This document shows, piece after piece, positions 8,923 to 35,448 of a DNA stretch of 36,123 nucleotides. Positions within the stretch are counted from its first letter, which is position 1; every line of letters begins with the position of its first letter. The notes below the pieces were generated by a model that had not been told where the DNA came from, did not search any database, and saw only the letters and a program-made list of their open reading frames with translations. The stretch lies in assembly GCA_030427525.1 (NCBI GenBank), contig JAUIBD010000010.1, positions 1-36,123 of the forward strand. Direction: 5' to 3'. The DNA comes from a bacterium. GTDB taxonomy: Bacteria; Patescibacteriota; Saccharimonadia; Saccharimonadales; Saccharimonadaceae. The position numbers were made by a program, and so were the translations under genes.

Positions 8923-8951
8923 TTGACTTTTTTATATAAATTTGATATAAT
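8923..8951 (+). promoter_or_regulatory. Sigma70-type promoter of the GC-rich gene at 9010
   Basis: TTGACT at 8923-8928 and TATAAT at 8946-8951 with a 17-base spacer. It has the same -35 hexamer and spacing as the cassettes at 33-35 kb. Confidence 0.8.
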
Positions 8952-8957
8952 ATGCTA

Positions 8958-8980
8958 GTTCCGTAAACCTTACGGAGAAC
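8958..8980 (+). promoter_or_regulatory. Leader hairpin upstream of the GC-rich gene
   Basis: CCGTAA at 8961-8966 pairs with TTACGG at 8970-8975 over a 3-base loop, extended by GTT/AAC with a bulge. It starts right at the predicted transcript 5' end, so it may protect the mRNA. A strong AAAGGGGGAG ribosome-binding site follows at 8997-9006. Confidence 0.55.
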
Positions 8981-9009
8981 TTTCCCATCGACCCTGAAAG
9001 GGGGAGCGA

Positions 9010-9495
9010 ATGTCAGACGCCAAGAAGGCCCCTCTCTCTGAGAAGGGGTACGGCATCCTGATCGGTATCGGTGCGCTCGTGATCCTGAGCGTTGTTGCCA
9101 AGCTGTTGGCCGACCTGTACCTGTGGGCCAACTTCGAGCACTGTGACCCCGACTCGTACTGGGTCAACGTGTACGGCACCCCGCCGGACATCGTGTGCAC
9201 GACCAGTGGCCTCTACTGGAACTGGATCGGCGCCATCGGCGTGCTGATCGCGGCCGTACTGCTGATGGCCTGGGCCTACCGCAAGCGGCACCACTGGTAC
9301 CGAGAGGTCATGAGTGGCACCGTAGTCGCCCACGGGTGGTACTCGTCGAGGGGCTTGCTGAGTTCTGGCTACCAGGAGTACCTGGTGGCCGTGGCAGGCA
9401 AGAACCGTCACGGCGATTGCCGCGTTCAGTGGCGCCGGGTGCAGCCGAGGACCTACTACAACTACGAGGCTGGAGACCCGATCAACTTCGGCTAG
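9010..9495 (+). CDS. GC-rich orphan gene: two-helix membrane protein with cytosolic tail
   Basis: 161 residues. Membrane segments at about 14-37 and 70-91 flank an outer loop with two cysteines (C45, C64) that could form a disulfide. The C-terminal ~70 residues are basic and aromatic (RKRHHWYREV, then RTYYNYEAGDPINFG). Codon use is strikingly different from neighbours: nearly every third position is G or C (CTG, GTG, GCC, ATC), whereas adjacent genes are mixed. It is a single-gene unit with its own promoter, leader hairpin, strong ribosome-binding site and two terminator-like hairpins. No family is recognised. Transfer from a GC-rich host or mobile element is plausible; Saccharibacteria live on Actinobacteria, but origin is inference. 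Confidence 0.75.
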   Translation: MSDAKKAPLSEKGYGILIGIGALVILSVVAKLLADLYLWANFEHCDPDSYWVNVYGTPPDIVCTTSGLYWNWIGAIGVLIAAVLLMAWAYRKRHHWYREVMSGTVVAHGWYSSRGLLSSGYQEYLVAVAGKNRHGDCRVQWRRVQPRTYYNYEAGDPINFG

Positions 9496-31682: not shown

Positions 31683-31728
31683 CATAAGCAAGACAAGAAA
31701 TGCATGTACTGAAAGGGTGGGAAAACAC

Positions 31729-32739
31729 ATGAGTACAACCAAGATCGCCATAAATGGCTTTGGACGAATCGGCCGCAACGCTTTTAAAATTGCCTTTGAA
31801 CGGAGTGATTTAGAAATTGTCGCCATAAACGACCTAACAGATAATAAAACACTGGCGTACTTGCTGAAACACGACAGCAACTACGGCACCTATGGCCACG
31901 ATGTAAAGGCAGAGGAAGACGGCTTTACGGTAGATGGCAAAAAGGTAAAGGTGCTAGCTGAAAAAGATCCTGCTGCGCTGCCATGGGGTGATATGGGCGT
32001 TGACTTGGTAATTGAAAGTACTGGCTTTTTTACCGATAAAGAAGGTGCGAGTAAGCACATTCAGGCAGGCGCGAAACGTGTGGTGATATCTGGCCCTACA
32101 AAAAGCGATGGTGTCGACACAATTGTACTGGGTGCTAATGATGACAAAGTAGAGGGTGCAACGGAAGTGATTTCAAACGCCAGCTGTACCACAAATAGTT
32201 TAGGTGCTGTTATGGCGGTGCTCGACGCTGAATTTGGCGTGGAAAAGAGTATGCTAACCACCGTACACAGCTACACTGCTAGCCAGAAACTGCAAGATGC
32301 ACCGGCCAAAGACCTGCGTGAGGGCCGCAACGCTGCAGAAAACATGGTACCAACTACTACCGGCGCCGCCATTGCTGTTACGAAAACATTGCCACAGCTA
32401 GAGGGCAAGTTCGACGGTGTAAGTGTACGTGTACCGACTCCTGTGGTATCGATTTCAGATGTTACGGCGTTACTTTCAAAAGATGTAACTGTGGAAGAAG
32501 TGAACGAAGCCTTCAAAAAGGCTGCCGCGCAAGATTACTACCAGGGAATTTTGGGCGTGTCAGACGAACCGCTGGTCTCGAGCGATTACATTGGCAACAG
32601 CAATTCGGGTACTGTTGACCTACCGCTCACCAAAGTTGTCGATGGCAACTTGATAAAAGTGATGGTATGGTACGACAACGAGTGGGGTTATAGCAACCGC
32701 CTCGTAGAGCTTGTCGCCGACGTTGGCAAGAACTTGTAA
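31729..32739 (+). CDS. gap: Glyceraldehyde-3-phosphate dehydrogenase
   Basis: 336 residues, full length. The start at 31729 follows GGGTGG; the GTG at 31717 falls inside the ribosome-binding region. NAD-binding INGFGRIGRNAFK opens the protein, C153 in SNASCTTNSLG is the catalytic cysteine, and HSYTASQKLQDAP supplies the paired His. The C-terminus WYDNEWGYSNRLVELVADV is standard. It is a central glycolytic enzyme. A diverged copy of its last ~23 codons lies 80 bases downstream. Confidence 0.97.
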   Translation: MSTTKIAINGFGRIGRNAFKIAFERSDLEIVAINDLTDNKTLAYLLKHDSNYGTYGHDVKAEEDGFTVDGKKVKVLAEKDPAALPWGDMGVDLVIESTGFFTDKEGASKHIQAGAKRVVISGPTKSDGVDTIVLGANDDKVEGATEVISNASCTTNSLGAVMAVLDAEFGVEKSMLTTVHSYTASQKLQDAPAKDLREGRNAAENMVPTTTGAAIAVTKTLPQLEGKFDGVSVRVPTPVVSISDVTALLSKDVTVEEVNEAFKKAAAQDYYQGILGVSDEPLVSSDYIGNSNSGTVDLPLTKVVDGNLIKVMVWYDNEWGYSNRLVELVADVGKNL

Positions 32740-32810: not shown

Positions 32811-32818
32811 TGAAGGTG

Positions 32819-32890
32819 TACGACAACGAATGGGATTATGGCAACCGTCTCGTAGAGCTTGTTGCGGACGTTGGTAAAAGTTTGCAATAA
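32819..32890 (+). pseudogene. Fragment of a diverged gap 3' end
   Basis: The frame encodes YDNEWDYGNRLVELVADVGK plus a few residues and stops with TAA. It matches the true gap C-terminus at 32670-32739. Of the differing codons about six are synonymous and three change an amino acid, so the copy probably diverged under selection before truncation. Its stop codon abuts the A/T tract of the first cassette terminator. Confidence 0.75.
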
Positions 32891-32909
32891 AAAACACCCA
32901 TCTTGGGTG
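32889..32909 (-). terminator. Rho-independent terminator of GC-rich cassette 1
   Basis: On the minus strand CACCC-AAGAT-GGGTG is followed by TTTTTT. Confidence 0.85.
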
Positions 32910-32919
32910 AAATATCATT

Positions 32920-32967
32920 GAAGTGCGGGCTCCGCGGGACAGTGTCCCACGGAGCCCATCGCACCTC
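32920..32967 (-). other. Long GC-rich 3' hairpin of cassette 1
   Basis: On the minus strand it opens TGAGGTGCG and closes CGCACTTC around a ~13-bp GC stem (GGGCTCCGTGGGACA pairing with TCCCGCGGAGCCC). The linker to the terminator reads TCAATGATAT. Confidence 0.75.
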
Positions 32968-32977
32968 AGGCAGGTCG

Positions 32978-33382
32978 TCAGTTCCGCCGGACTCTCGCCC
33001 AGAGCTGTCGCTGCTGCAGAAGTCGACCGTTCTCCTGCTCGAACAGCTCACCGAGGAACTGCTCGTCGGTCTCGGCGACGAAGCGTCGCCGGTACTCGAT
33101 GGCGAGCAGCACCACGTGGCTGGCGAGAACAGGCAGCGTTGCCACTGTCAGCTTGCGCCAGGAGGGCTTGGTACGCGTCTCGACCAGACCGGGGTGCATG
33201 ATGCGGCCACGCATGGCGTTGACCGAGTGCACCAGCAGATGTGCTGATGCTCGTCCGAACTTGGTCGAGAGCTCTTCGTCGCTCAGGTGGCTGAAGCGGT
33301 CGGCGGCGAGAGCTTCCAGCCACTTGTAGTAGCCACGGGTGCTCTCGCGGGCCTGTCCGGACAGGTTCTGGGGGTTGAACAT
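32978..33382 (-). CDS. GC-rich cassette 1: orphan helical protein
   Basis: 134 residues from the ATG at 33382 (a TTG at 33391 would sit on the GGAAAG ribosome site). It is mostly helical and basic: NLSGQARESTRGYYKWLEAL, LSDEELSTKFGRASAHLLVHSVNAMRGRI, a short hydrophobic stretch (LTVATLPVLASHVVLLAIEY), and a charged tail rich in Arg, Glu and Gln (ENGRLLQQRQLWARVRRN). Codon use is strongly GC-biased at third positions, unlike gap. No family is recognised. One weak membrane segment is possible near residues 78-95. The gene has its own promoter, leader hairpin and double 3' hairpin. Confidence 0.7.
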   Translation of the reverse strand: MFNPQNLSGQARESTRGYYKWLEALAADRFSHLSDEELSTKFGRASAHLLVHSVNAMRGRIMHPGLVETRTKPSWRKLTVATLPVLASHVVLLAIEYRRRFVAETDEQFLGELFEQENGRLLQQRQLWARVRRN

Positions 33383-33403
33383 TGGGGCCAACTTTCCGAT
33401 CTA

Positions 33404-33419
33404 AGGTGCAGGCGCACCT
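33404..33419 (-). promoter_or_regulatory. Leader hairpin of cassette 1
   Basis: AGGTGC and GCACCT arms over a GCCT loop (minus strand), between promoter and start codon; the same arms occur in cassettes 2 and 3. Confidence 0.7.
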
Positions 33420-33455
33420 CGATCTAGGTAGTAGAGAGGTAGGGCCTATCTTTTC

Positions 33456-33484
33456 ATTATAGCATAAATAATACAAAAAGTCAA
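33456..33484 (-). promoter_or_regulatory. Promoter of cassette 1
   Basis: TTGACT (33479-33484) and TATAAT (33456-33461) on the minus strand, 17-base spacer, with TGC before the -10. Confidence 0.85.
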
Positions 33485-33512
33485 TATTCTTAGAATCCGT
33501 AATACAAATAAA

Positions 33513-33528
33513 ACACCCGACAGGGTGT
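33513..33528 (-). terminator. Rho-independent terminator of cassette 2
   Basis: Minus strand ACACCC-TGTC-GGGTGT then TTTATTTG. Confidence 0.8.
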
Positions 33529-33534
33529 ATCTTT

Positions 33535-33583
33535 GAAGCGCGGACACCGAGAGGCGAGTGCCTCTCAGTGCCCGATGCGCCTC
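33535..33583 (-). other. Long GC-rich 3' hairpin of cassette 2
   Basis: Minus strand: opens at the stop codon itself (TGAGGCGC), stem GGGCACTGAGAGGC with GCCTCTCGGTGTCC, closes GCGCTTC, then linker TCAAAGATA. Confidence 0.75.
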
Positions 33584-33863
33584 AGACGCGGAGCGTGACG
33601 GGCTGGGCGTTCGGCGATGTTGTCGCCATCTCGGCCTGCCAGTAGGTCACCGAGTCCATGATCTTCTTGAGGTTGCCGCCGTGCGTCCGCTGCAGCGTGG
33701 CCTGGCGAATCGCCTCCGCGACGGCCTCCACGGTGTTCGCGACGTTCTTGCGAGCCCGCACGTCGTCCTTGATCTTGTCGACCAGCTCGCGCATCGCCTG
33801 CTTGTCGGGGGCATTTGCGATCAGGTACTCCGGGTTCCACGAGTCGATCACCGGCTTGGGCAT
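33582..33863 (-). CDS. GC-rich cassette 2: orphan helical protein
   Basis: 93 residues from the ATG at 33863, with GGAG five bases upstream. A short N-terminal segment (MPKPVIDSWNPEYLIANAPD) precedes two amphipathic helices (KQAMRELVDKIKDDVRARKN, then TVEAVAEAIRQATLQR) and a basic GGNLKKIMDSVTYWQAEM. No membrane helix, no cysteine. The stop TGA is the first part of the conserved TGAGGCGC of the 3' hairpin. Third positions are GC-rich. No family recognised. A longer frame upstream to 33932 crosses the leader hairpin and is rejected. Confidence 0.65.
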   Translation of the reverse strand: MPKPVIDSWNPEYLIANAPDKQAMRELVDKIKDDVRARKNVANTVEAVAEAIRQATLQRTHGGNLKKIMDSVTYWQAEMATTSPNAQPVTLRV

Positions 33864-33878
33864 GGCGTCTCCGTCCTG

Positions 33879-33895
33879 AGGTGCAGACCGCACCT
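33879..33895 (-). promoter_or_regulatory. Leader hairpin of cassette 2
   Basis: Arms AGGTGC and GCACCT over a GGTCT loop (minus strand), followed by CAGGACGGAG. Confidence 0.7.
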
Positions 33896-33922
33896 CCGAG
33901 GGGGTTGGTGTAGTCAAGACTA

Positions 33923-33951
33923 ATTTCAGCACAAGCTAAACTTCGAGTCAA
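33923..33951 (-). promoter_or_regulatory. Promoter of cassette 2 with degenerate -10
   Basis: TTGACT (33946-33951), 17-base spacer ending TGC, then TGAAAT where the other cassettes have TATAAT. Probably weak or regulated. Confidence 0.55.
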
Positions 33952-33958
33952 GGCAGAG

Positions 33959-34492
33959 CTATTGTTCGCGTGCTACAGCTTGCTTGGTCACCGACACGCT
34001 CCGTTGAGCGCAGGGAATCATCGAACCGTTTGGTGTTGTAATGTAGGGACGCAGCAGATACGCACCTGGCTTATTTGCATCAATTACAAAGTTTGCACTG
34101 TTATGGTCGTCTGATGAAACCGTTTGAGTCATACTATCAACGGGCTTAAATTCAAACCGGCCTTTACCTAAGCCGCTGCGCAGAACTACTAATACGGCAC
34201 CGCCGAATTTTGTAAGATCACCCTGTAGCTGCATGTCTACATCGAAACTGTGACCGTTCTCACTAGTGACAATAACATTGCTGCACTCCACAGGTAATTC
34301 AAGCGGTGTGGCGAGTGTACTTTCTGGAACAGCATCGGAAATTGGTGGTTCGGGAGGTAGAGGCGCAACATATTCAGGAAGATCGGCTGAACACGCCGTA
34401 CCAATGCCAGCAACAGCAAGCAGCTCACCAGCTAGCATAGTCTTGGTGAGTGTAAATCTCTGGTGCGTGGGGCTGTGGTCTATTTTGCTCAT
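33959..34492 (-). CDS. Secreted or lipoprotein-like hypothetical protein
   Basis: 177 residues. A signal-like hydrophobic stretch (TMLAGELLAVAGIGTAC) ends at C34, which could be lipidated, though the residue at -3 is Gly rather than Leu. A Pro-rich linker follows (YVAPLPPEPPISDAVP), then a beta domain (SNVIVTSENGHSFDVDMQLQG, later KPGAYLLRPYITTPNGSM) with two cysteines. Base composition matches the bulk genome and not the flanking cassettes. AAGGAA precedes the ATG, and TGCTATAAC upstream is a probable -10. It shares orientation with the cassettes and sits between cassettes 2 and 3. Family unknown. Confidence 0.7.
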   Translation of the reverse strand: MSKIDHSPTHQRFTLTKTMLAGELLAVAGIGTACSADLPEYVAPLPPEPPISDAVPESTLATPLELPVECSNVIVTSENGHSFDVDMQLQGDLTKFGGAVLVVLRSGLGKGRFEFKPVDSMTQTVSSDDHNSANFVIDANKPGAYLLRPYITTPNGSMIPCAQRSVSVTKQAVAREQ

Positions 34493-34548
34493 ACTACTTC
34501 CTTGAGTGCTCTAGTTATAGCATGTGTCTACCTACAGGGCAAACAAAA

Positions 34549-34564
34549 AGCACCTAATGGTGCT
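34549..34564 (-). terminator. Rho-independent terminator of cassette 3
   Basis: Minus strand AGCACC-ATTA-GGTGCT then TTTTTGTTTG. Confidence 0.85.
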
Positions 34565-34572
34565 ATATCTTT

Positions 34573-34614
34573 GAGAGCGGGCCCGGGGGTTGCCCCCCGG
34601 AACCCGTGCGCCTC
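34573..34614 (-). other. Long GC-rich 3' hairpin of cassette 3
   Basis: Minus strand: opens at the stop codon (TGAGGCGC), stem with GGGTTCCGGGGG against CCCCCGGGCCC, closes GCTCTC, then linker TCAAAGATATA. Confidence 0.75.
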
Positions 34615-34843
34615 AGCGGTACTTGACCAGAAGGTCGATGGCGATGTCGAGCCCGCGCTGGGCGCGACGAACCGCTCCGCGCAGCGAACCGCTCTCCTTG
34701 GCGAGGTACGCCAGGCGAACTGCTCGCATGTGCTGGATCTTGTCTCGCCAGTTGGTGATGTCACACTTGGCGAGCGACTTGAGGTGCTCATCGAGCATCG
34801 CTCGCGCGAGGTCGGCCTCTTGCTGGGTTAGAGTGGCAGACAT
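34613..34843 (-). CDS. GC-rich cassette 3: small orphan helical protein
   Basis: 76 residues with AAAGGGG upstream. Almost entirely helical: TQQEADLARAMLDEHLKSLAK, TNWRDKIQHMRAVRLAYLAKE, then SGSLRGAVRRAQRGLDIAIDLLVKY. It is strongly basic with one cysteine and no membrane segment. GC-rich third positions. The stop codon is embedded in the conserved 3' element. It could be a small nucleic-acid- or protein-binding factor, but no family is recognised. Confidence 0.65.
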   Translation of the reverse strand: MSATLTQQEADLARAMLDEHLKSLAKCDITNWRDKIQHMRAVRLAYLAKESGSLRGAVRRAQRGLDIAIDLLVKYR

Positions 34844-34864
34844 GCCAGCCCCTTTCGAAGTATC

Positions 34865-34885
34865 TGAGGTGCGGGCTGCACCTCA
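34865..34885 (-). promoter_or_regulatory. Leader hairpin of cassette 3
   Basis: Perfect 8-bp arms TGAGGTGC and GCACCTCA over a five-base loop, the longest of the three. Confidence 0.75.
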
Positions 34886-34915
34886 ACGGATGGACGGAGG
34901 TGAAGCCTATCTATC

Positions 34916-34944
34916 ATTATAGCACAAAAAATAGGTTTAGTCAA
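34916..34944 (-). promoter_or_regulatory. Promoter of cassette 3
   Basis: TTGACT (34939-34944) and TATAAT (34916-34921) on the minus strand, 17-base spacer ending TGC. Confidence 0.85.
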
Positions 34945-34986: not shown

Positions 34987-34992
34987 GTAAGC

Positions 34993-35448
34993 ATGAAGGT
35001 ATTCTTGGGTGCGGATCACGGTGGCTTTTACCTAAAAGAGAAGATTTTTGCGTACCTAGCAAAACACGGCCTAGAAGTAGAAGATGTCGGTGATAAAGAA
35101 CTCGACCCAAAAGACGACTTCCCAGAATTTGCCCAAATGGCGGCGCTAAAAGTGCTGGGTGAAGAAGAAAAAGACGACCCGCGTGCAATTCTTATTTGTA
35201 CCGGTGGGCAGGGTATGGCTATGGCGGCGAATCGTTTTAGTGGTATCCGTGCCGCGGTAATATGGGATGCGTTTGAAGCAAAAGAATGCCGGAACGATAA
35301 TGATAGCAACATTTTATGCCTTCCAGCCCGAGTGGTTGAAAACGATGAGGCGTTGTGGGAAGGCATCGTAGAAACCTGGCTAAATACTCCGTTTGCTGGT
35401 GCGGCTAGATATAAGCGCCGGAACGCGCAGTTAGACGAGATAGCGTAG
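34993..35448 (+). CDS. rpiB: Ribose-5-phosphate isomerase B (RpiB/LacAB family)
   Basis: 151 residues from the ATG at 34993; an upstream in-frame start lies before the promoter and is rejected. LGADHGGFYLKEKI is the family N-terminus with the substrate-binding D8-H9. CTGGQGMAMAANRFSGIRAA is the active-site loop with its Cys, close to the classical CGTGIG form but with GGQ in place of GTGI. ECRNDNDSNILCLPARVV is the HNDAN-like segment. It interconverts ribose-5-phosphate and ribulose-5-phosphate in the non-oxidative pentose phosphate pathway. The next gene overlaps its stop by one base. Confidence 0.92.
   Translation: MKVFLGADHGGFYLKEKIFAYLAKHGLEVEDVGDKELDPKDDFPEFAQMAALKVLGEEEKDDPRAILICTGGQGMAMAANRFSGIRAAVIWDAFEAKECRNDNDSNILCLPARVVENDEALWEGIVETWLNTPFAGAARYKRRNAQLDEIA

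Follow-up and report, generated by a model that had tools for sequence, protein, structure and literature searches.

How do small genes that share no similarity come to lie side by side in the same regulatory surroundings, between two conserved housekeeping genes? The question arises from a contig of 36,123 nucleotides (JAUIBD010000010.1, assembly GCA_030427525.1; this whole stretch is called the window below) from a bacterium of the family Saccharimonadaceae. Here gap (31717..32739, + strand) and rpiB (about 34990..35448, + strand; tool match 34993-35445) form the left and right borders of a hotspot that holds three minus-strand units, w1, w2 and w3, each made of a promoter, a leader hairpin, a GC-rich open reading frame (ORF), a GC hairpin and a terminator. 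Saccharibacteria are parasites with very small genomes that live on Actinobacteria, and to our knowledge the gain and change of their strain-specific genes are poorly understood. We propose that these units, which we call cassettes, are single-gene expression slots similar to the minimal mobile elements (MMEs) of Neisseria, in which a shared expression frame carries a replaceable ORF and is reshuffled by homologous recombination; we put the probability of this reading at about 0.68. Single genes do seem to be exchanged in this manner, chiefly at one place on the chromosome, and literature searches found no description of such cassettes in Saccharibacteria.

A preliminary description of this DNA had proposed the three-unit architecture, and we recovered every part of it in place or within a few bases. 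All cassette parts lie on the minus strand. In w1, the promoter TTGACT-17-TGC-TATAAT (34916..34944) precedes the leader hairpin GAGGTGC-AGCCC-GCACCTC (34866..34884) and an orphan ORF of 76 aa (34613..34843; GC content at third codon positions, GC3, 0.78; stop TGA). The stop codon forms the base (TGAG...CTCA) of the 3' GC hairpin TGAGGCGC (34572..34615), which is followed by the terminator GCACC..GGTGC-T5 (34544..34563). The w2 promoter reads TTGACT-17-TGC-TGAAAT (33923..33951), its leader hairpin GAGGTGC-GGTCT-GCACCTC (33878..33896), and its orphan ORF encodes 93 aa (33582..33863; GC3 0.93; stop TGA); the stop codon again lies inside the 3' hairpin, TGAGGCGC...GCGCTTCA (33534..33584), ahead of the terminator ACACCC..GGGTGT-TTT (33509..33528). 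In w3, a TTGACT-17-TGC-TATAAT promoter (33456..33484) and the leader hairpin GAGGTGC-GCCT-GCACCTT, with T as its last base (33403..33420), lead into an ORF of 134 aa (32978..33382; GC3 0.81) predicted to be helical with one transmembrane (TM)-like segment. Its 3' hairpin TGAGGTGC...GCACTTCA (32919..32968) is compensatory to that of w2 and opens 12 nt past the actual stop, at a second in-frame TGA; the terminator CACCC..GGGTG-T6 (32886..32909) closes the unit. The three start codons lie about 15-25 nt downstream of the leader hairpin. GC content is 60-66% within the cassette ORFs vs 45-50% in the surroundings, and GC3 of ordinary genes in the window is about 0.5 vs 0.78-0.93 in w1-w3.

The two ends of the frame are conserved in different ways. 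The preliminary description had seen covariation in the stems, and this holds for the 3' stem, where the sequence varies freely while pairing is kept (w2 TGAGGCGC/GCGCTTCA, w3 TGAGGTGC/GCACTTCA). It does not hold for the 5' stem: GAGGTGC/GCACCTC is fixed across genera, and the sole changes among 16 hairpins are one-sided, to G-U. Paired cells in the 3' stems, which had been picked for length, number 143/144 vs 88.6 with shuffled arms. Stems with seven or more G-C pairs, lying no more than 75 nt past the stop, occur in 16 of 19 cassettes vs 5 of 138 ordinary genes (Fisher p about 6e-15), and the 3' hairpins open with TGAGGYGC. The leader hairpin pairs a Shine-Dalgarno (SD)-like GAGGUG with an anti-SD-like CACCUC; in part of the leaders a CCTC-type stretch further upstream would offer GAGG an alternative partner, a feature not kept in all members. 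Rfam covariance models gave no match in the window at the gathering threshold (best relaxed match, E 2.7). Two further ideas about the leader were discarded. Long-range pairing of leader GCACCTCAG with 3' CTGAGGTGC fails since the 3' copy changes (TGAGGCGC, TGAGATGC, TGACGTGC) and the leader does not follow, unlike the local 3' partner, which follows these changes in w2 and w3. A translated leader peptide is rejected for want of a properly spaced start codon after GAGGTG.

Are the cassettes a peculiarity of this locus? A search for the leader hairpin (GAGGTGCN{2,8}GCACCT, with the reversed pattern as control) matched the window's genome nine times, counting both strands, and found the hairpin in 7 of the 14 genomes of the genus; the control gave 0, and the pattern is well beyond chance. 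Covariance models of promoter plus leader (R1, then an improved R2) identified cassettes in 16/394 genomes of the family, representing 7 of 61 genera, and none in a 393-genome sample of other families in the order. Most of the genomes compared are metagenome assemblies; named carriers include Ca. Saccharibacteria UBA1050, UBA6664, UBA2018 and UBA2952. In all, about 20 further cassettes were found beyond w1-w3 in 8 genera of this one family, as well as two divergent ones, and leader model scores of cassettes range from 50 to 90 bits. As the preliminary description had anticipated, the scan led to GC-rich small ORFs that are unrelated to one another, and the matches were neither confined to the locus nor attached to one duplicated protein family. 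Each of the five R2 matches outside the training set is followed by a small orphan ORF; four of these ORFs are GC-rich, with GC3 of 0.65-0.74, and the fifth is intermediate (0.56). Weak R1 matches (below about 38 bits) were set aside; they have no hairpin and are mostly bare promoters. Pattern matches in Chloroflexi, Anaerolineales and Lachnospiraceae were likewise discounted as chance, with no cassette ORF there.

Judged from sequence comparison, the main slot is the interval between gap and rpiB, where cassettes usually sit. The interval is strain-variable, as had been expected, and among the species compared it is empty, holds one, two or three cassettes, or contains decayed remnants. Three species (G001, G005 and G009; 25-83 bp) have no cassette there and two (G008 and G011; 244 bp) have decayed ones, whereas the remaining species carry cassettes, as do other genera of the family at this slot. 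Reading this slot also revealed a cassette with a variant hairpin (G006) and more divergent cassettes in G286 and G162. In the G008 and G011 remnants a -35-like box and a terminator are still recognisable and the ORF is lost. In G453, a cassette located between FtsK/SpoIIIE-like and RNase J-like genes contains two GC-rich ORFs that adjoin at TGAGGAAATG.

The preliminary description had proposed a modular regulatory frame carrying different genes, and several comparisons now give direct evidence for replacement of the ORF within it. Cassette w3 and a cassette on contig 25 of the same assembly (C25b, also present in genome G012) occupy the same slot beside gap. In the 5' flank, identity is 84% and extends as far as the ATG; in the 3' flank it is 89% and sets in at the stop. 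The coding sequences (CDS) in between reach an identity of 0.38, within the codon-shuffled background (0.30-0.39), and the proteins are unrelated. Likewise, the single cassette of G007 (UBA6664) is a hybrid: it matches cassette a of G002 (UBA1050) as far as the leader hairpin, and cassette b from just past that hairpin on (CDS 92%, 3' flank 98%). Furthermore, one protein family (that of G010b, 35-45% identity) lies inside the frame in three genera at three places, namely gap-rpiB, adjoining a Ham1-like gene, and after xthA. These alignments show that ORFs have been replaced or deleted inside the frame, the junction falling either at the leader hairpin or at the start codon. Between w3 and gap lies a second gap 3' end (...YDNEWDYGNRLVELVADVGKSLQ and stop; 32818..32890, + strand), which is likely a recombination scar. 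It ends in GKSLQ and a stop, as does the C25/G012 allele, and has 84% DNA identity to the resident gap; it is a mosaic whose first half is nearer to the resident gene, which leaves some doubt about the donor. The sharp identity switches at the frame borders, together with this scar, fit homologous recombination in the flanks.

What do the cassettes encode? That the proteins are dissimilar had been claimed for w1, w2 and w3, which are indeed mutually unrelated, and it extends to the whole set: the 26 cassette proteins form at least 12 groups between which no similarity is detectable. Some distant relatives exist (w3/G002b/G007; C25b/G002a/G004; BP8/G102/G472b), and relatives of the w3 protein in UBA1050 and UBA6664 show 31% identity. 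The closest pair is under selection at the protein level (nonsynonymous divergence dN 0.05, synonymous divergence dS 0.21, dN/dS about 0.25). About ten of the proteins have three TM-like segments, the others one, two or none. Predicted structures are helical and of low to moderate confidence, with a mean pLDDT (per-residue confidence score) of 61 for w3 and 73 for G010b, a TM helix plus helical bundle, and a fold search of the PDB with predicted structures gave no match below E 0.5. Searches of Pfam, PHROG and NCBIfam returned no match of note, and PADLOC defence models none better than E 0.01. No match was found by tblastn in 50,697 phage and 72,556 plasmid records; viral contigs, searched by pattern and by protein, contained no cassette, the single pattern match having no cassette ORF. 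The small size, membrane location and fast turnover of these proteins suggest a role in contact; we speculate that they are small accessory proteins, mostly of the membrane, which may act in contact with host bacteria, competitors or phages.

Codon usage sets the cassettes apart from the genes around them. Pooled core cassettes use AAG at 0.97 vs 0.38 in neighbouring genes, TTC at 0.97 vs 0.36 and ATC at 0.90 vs 0.24; TTA encodes 0 of 226 leucines vs a fraction of 0.14 in the neighbours. The stop codon is TGA in 17/17 cassettes vs 16/140 host genes (p 5e-14). This usage presumably resembles that of Actinobacteria, the known hosts. Ordinary codon optimisation as the source of the high GC3 was rejected because the presumably well-expressed neighbours gap, fba and tkt have a GC3 of about 0.4-0.55. 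Related ORFs in different genera keep a GC3 of 0.80-0.84 despite high synonymous divergence, which does not look like a recent import losing its composition. Where four-fold sites differ, G/C is exchanged for G/C in 32 cases, one of the two bases is A/T in 49 and both are in 1, showing that the GC bias is maintained, though not absolute.

How do the cassettes compare with known systems? MMEs (Saunders and Snyder 2002), taken here as defined in PMC3082526 and PMC3898611, resemble them in placing different whole-gene cassettes between two conserved genes, here gap and rpiB, with homologous recombination as the likely route; the genomes in our comparison are species, not strains. No mobility genes lie between gap and rpiB, orphan ORFs only. 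Unlike in MMEs, a single 5' and 3' expression frame is common to the unrelated ORFs, at other loci too, breakpoints lie at the frame borders in addition to the flanking genes, and codon bias is extreme. Integron cassettes are likewise mostly single-ORF orphan units that at times occur in tandem and carry a structured element where the gene ends. In contrast, each cassette here has its own promoter and terminator, arrays hold at most three, and loci are dispersed. Nor is there an integron-like site, in agreement with the preliminary description: the attC core GTTRRRY/RYYYAAC is absent from the 3' hairpins by inspection, and no IntI integrase was recognised among ORFs around cassette loci, although no genome-wide search was made. 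Phage morons share the autonomous promoter-ORF-terminator layout, the deviant GC and the insertion between unrelated genes, but our cassettes are chromosomal, between housekeeping genes, with a common RNA frame and no phage relatives found. In cluster K mycobacteriophages, the start-associated sequences (SAS, and extended, ESAS) likewise place a short conserved motif or inverted repeat ahead of numerous small genes that are unrelated to one another. They differ from the cassette leaders in sequence and host and are not known to come with a shared 3' hairpin.

We envisage that the fixed frame, consisting of a near-consensus extended -10 promoter, the invariant leader hairpin, the GC hairpin at the stop and a U-tailed terminator, would give an incoming ORF strong, insulated expression, with the 5' and 3' hairpins probably stabilising the mRNA. 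ORFs would be exchanged by homologous recombination between shared frames and flanking genes, presumably fed by natural transformation. Natural competence, with recombination of the DNA taken up, is documented in Saccharibacteria (PMC10633639) and makes transfer of cassettes plausible. Fast turnover and actinobacteria-like codons suggest that the ORFs come from a gene pool outside the ordinary Saccharibacteria genome. Several points weigh against such slots. Neither a recombinase nor a transfer event nor expression was seen. Unrelated ORFs have short stretches of flank in common (about 100-150 bp on each side), so that some swaps could be explained by repeated deletion in ancestral tandem arrays, with no transfer between cells. 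The window's assembly (G000) contains two rpiB-gap loci, on contigs C1 and C25, and C25 is nearly identical to contig C15 of G012; it thus seems to be a mix of two species, and assembly may have influenced the order of the cassettes in the window, yet the architecture recurs in independent genomes. Finally, the roles of the proteins are conjectural, and no fold or family match was found.

Could the cassettes instead form a regulon, in which a protein or small RNA binds the leader hairpin as a cis-regulatory RNA element of functionally related genes acquired or diverged independently? The 5' stem is invariant in sequence, beyond structure, as a binding site would be, and the SD/anti-SD-like pairing with the alternative upstream stretch in some leaders would suit such control. 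This alternative pairing is missing in part of the members, however, and a regulon leaves unexplained the conserved 3' hairpins, the breakpoints at frame borders and the near-identical flanks around unrelated ORFs of the same slot. We consider it unlikely as the whole explanation; for the invariant leader hairpin it may hold, and both readings can be true. Ordinary turnover of fast-evolving orphans at one intergenic site, by duplication, divergence and loss, with shared ends inherited from an old duplicated family, would account for the distant relatives among cassettes, the tandem arrays and the concentration at one locus. It is harder to reconcile with flanks that are 84-89% identical around CDS at background, with one family at different loci in different genera and with at least 12 unrelated protein groups, and we regard it as rather improbable.

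The invariance of the palindrome, the G007 hybrid joined at it and the 3' stem that opens with the same (T)GAGGYGC might also indicate dedicated site-specific or single-strand recombination at the leader palindrome and the 3' stem-loop, like attC or IS200/IS605-type hairpins. But no recombinase gene was recognised near the loci examined, the attC consensus is lacking, the w3/C25b breakpoint falls at the start codon, outside the hairpin, and the promoter and terminator of each frame lie outside the hairpins; we think this improbable. Equally doubtful is a more specific version, in which a dedicated cassette system without an integrase uses the palindrome itself for exchange and draws on an ORF pool that stands under the codon regime of the actinobacterial hosts, being captured from, or made for, the host cell; if true, such a pool would explain the TGA-only stops and actinobacteria-like codons in ORF families across several genera. 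Least credible are phage or plasmid remnants carrying GC-rich morons: their own promoter, one orphan gene, own terminator and deviant composition would fit, whereas the phage and plasmid records and viral contigs yielded no relatives, and the loci lie between housekeeping genes without phage genes.

Are the expression slots part of something larger? An exact search of the genus for the consensus promoter (TTGACTTTTT..TGNTATAAT, reversed as control) gave 27 occurrences, some of them the same loci in related genomes, vs 0 for the control. Fifteen of the 27 drive ORFs with GC3 above 0.7 (range 0.7-0.97), mostly orphan and many with other leader hairpins; ORFs behind this promoter include a NUDIX protein and a Cro/C1-type regulator. 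Loci of promoter-driven GC-rich ORFs include L152, L154, L155, L161, L168, L178, L188, L191 and L192, among others. Within the window, a related GC-rich unit (8923..9495, + strand) has the same promoter type, another leader hairpin, TCCGTAAACCTTACGGA, and another 3' hairpin; its ORF (9010-9495; GC3 0.87) encodes a 161-aa membrane-type orphan. GC-rich orphan genes behind consensus promoters thus look like a genome-wide class, of which the cassettes seem to be a hairpin-tagged subset; because many members of the promoter class have other leader hairpins, the GAGGTGC cassettes represent one leader subfamily. Between w1 and w2 lies a 177-aa gene (33959-34492, − strand) of normal composition with a lipoprotein-like N-terminus, for which no family match was found.

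If the cassettes are indeed expression slots, a fixed frame that accepts unrelated single genes would let Saccharibacteria vary fast by simple means, with no need for mobile-element enzymes. The consensus promoter and the frame provide a handle for finding an overlooked class of GC-rich genes, and their codon bias poses a testable question: where do cassette genes evolve, and in whose cytoplasm are they translated?

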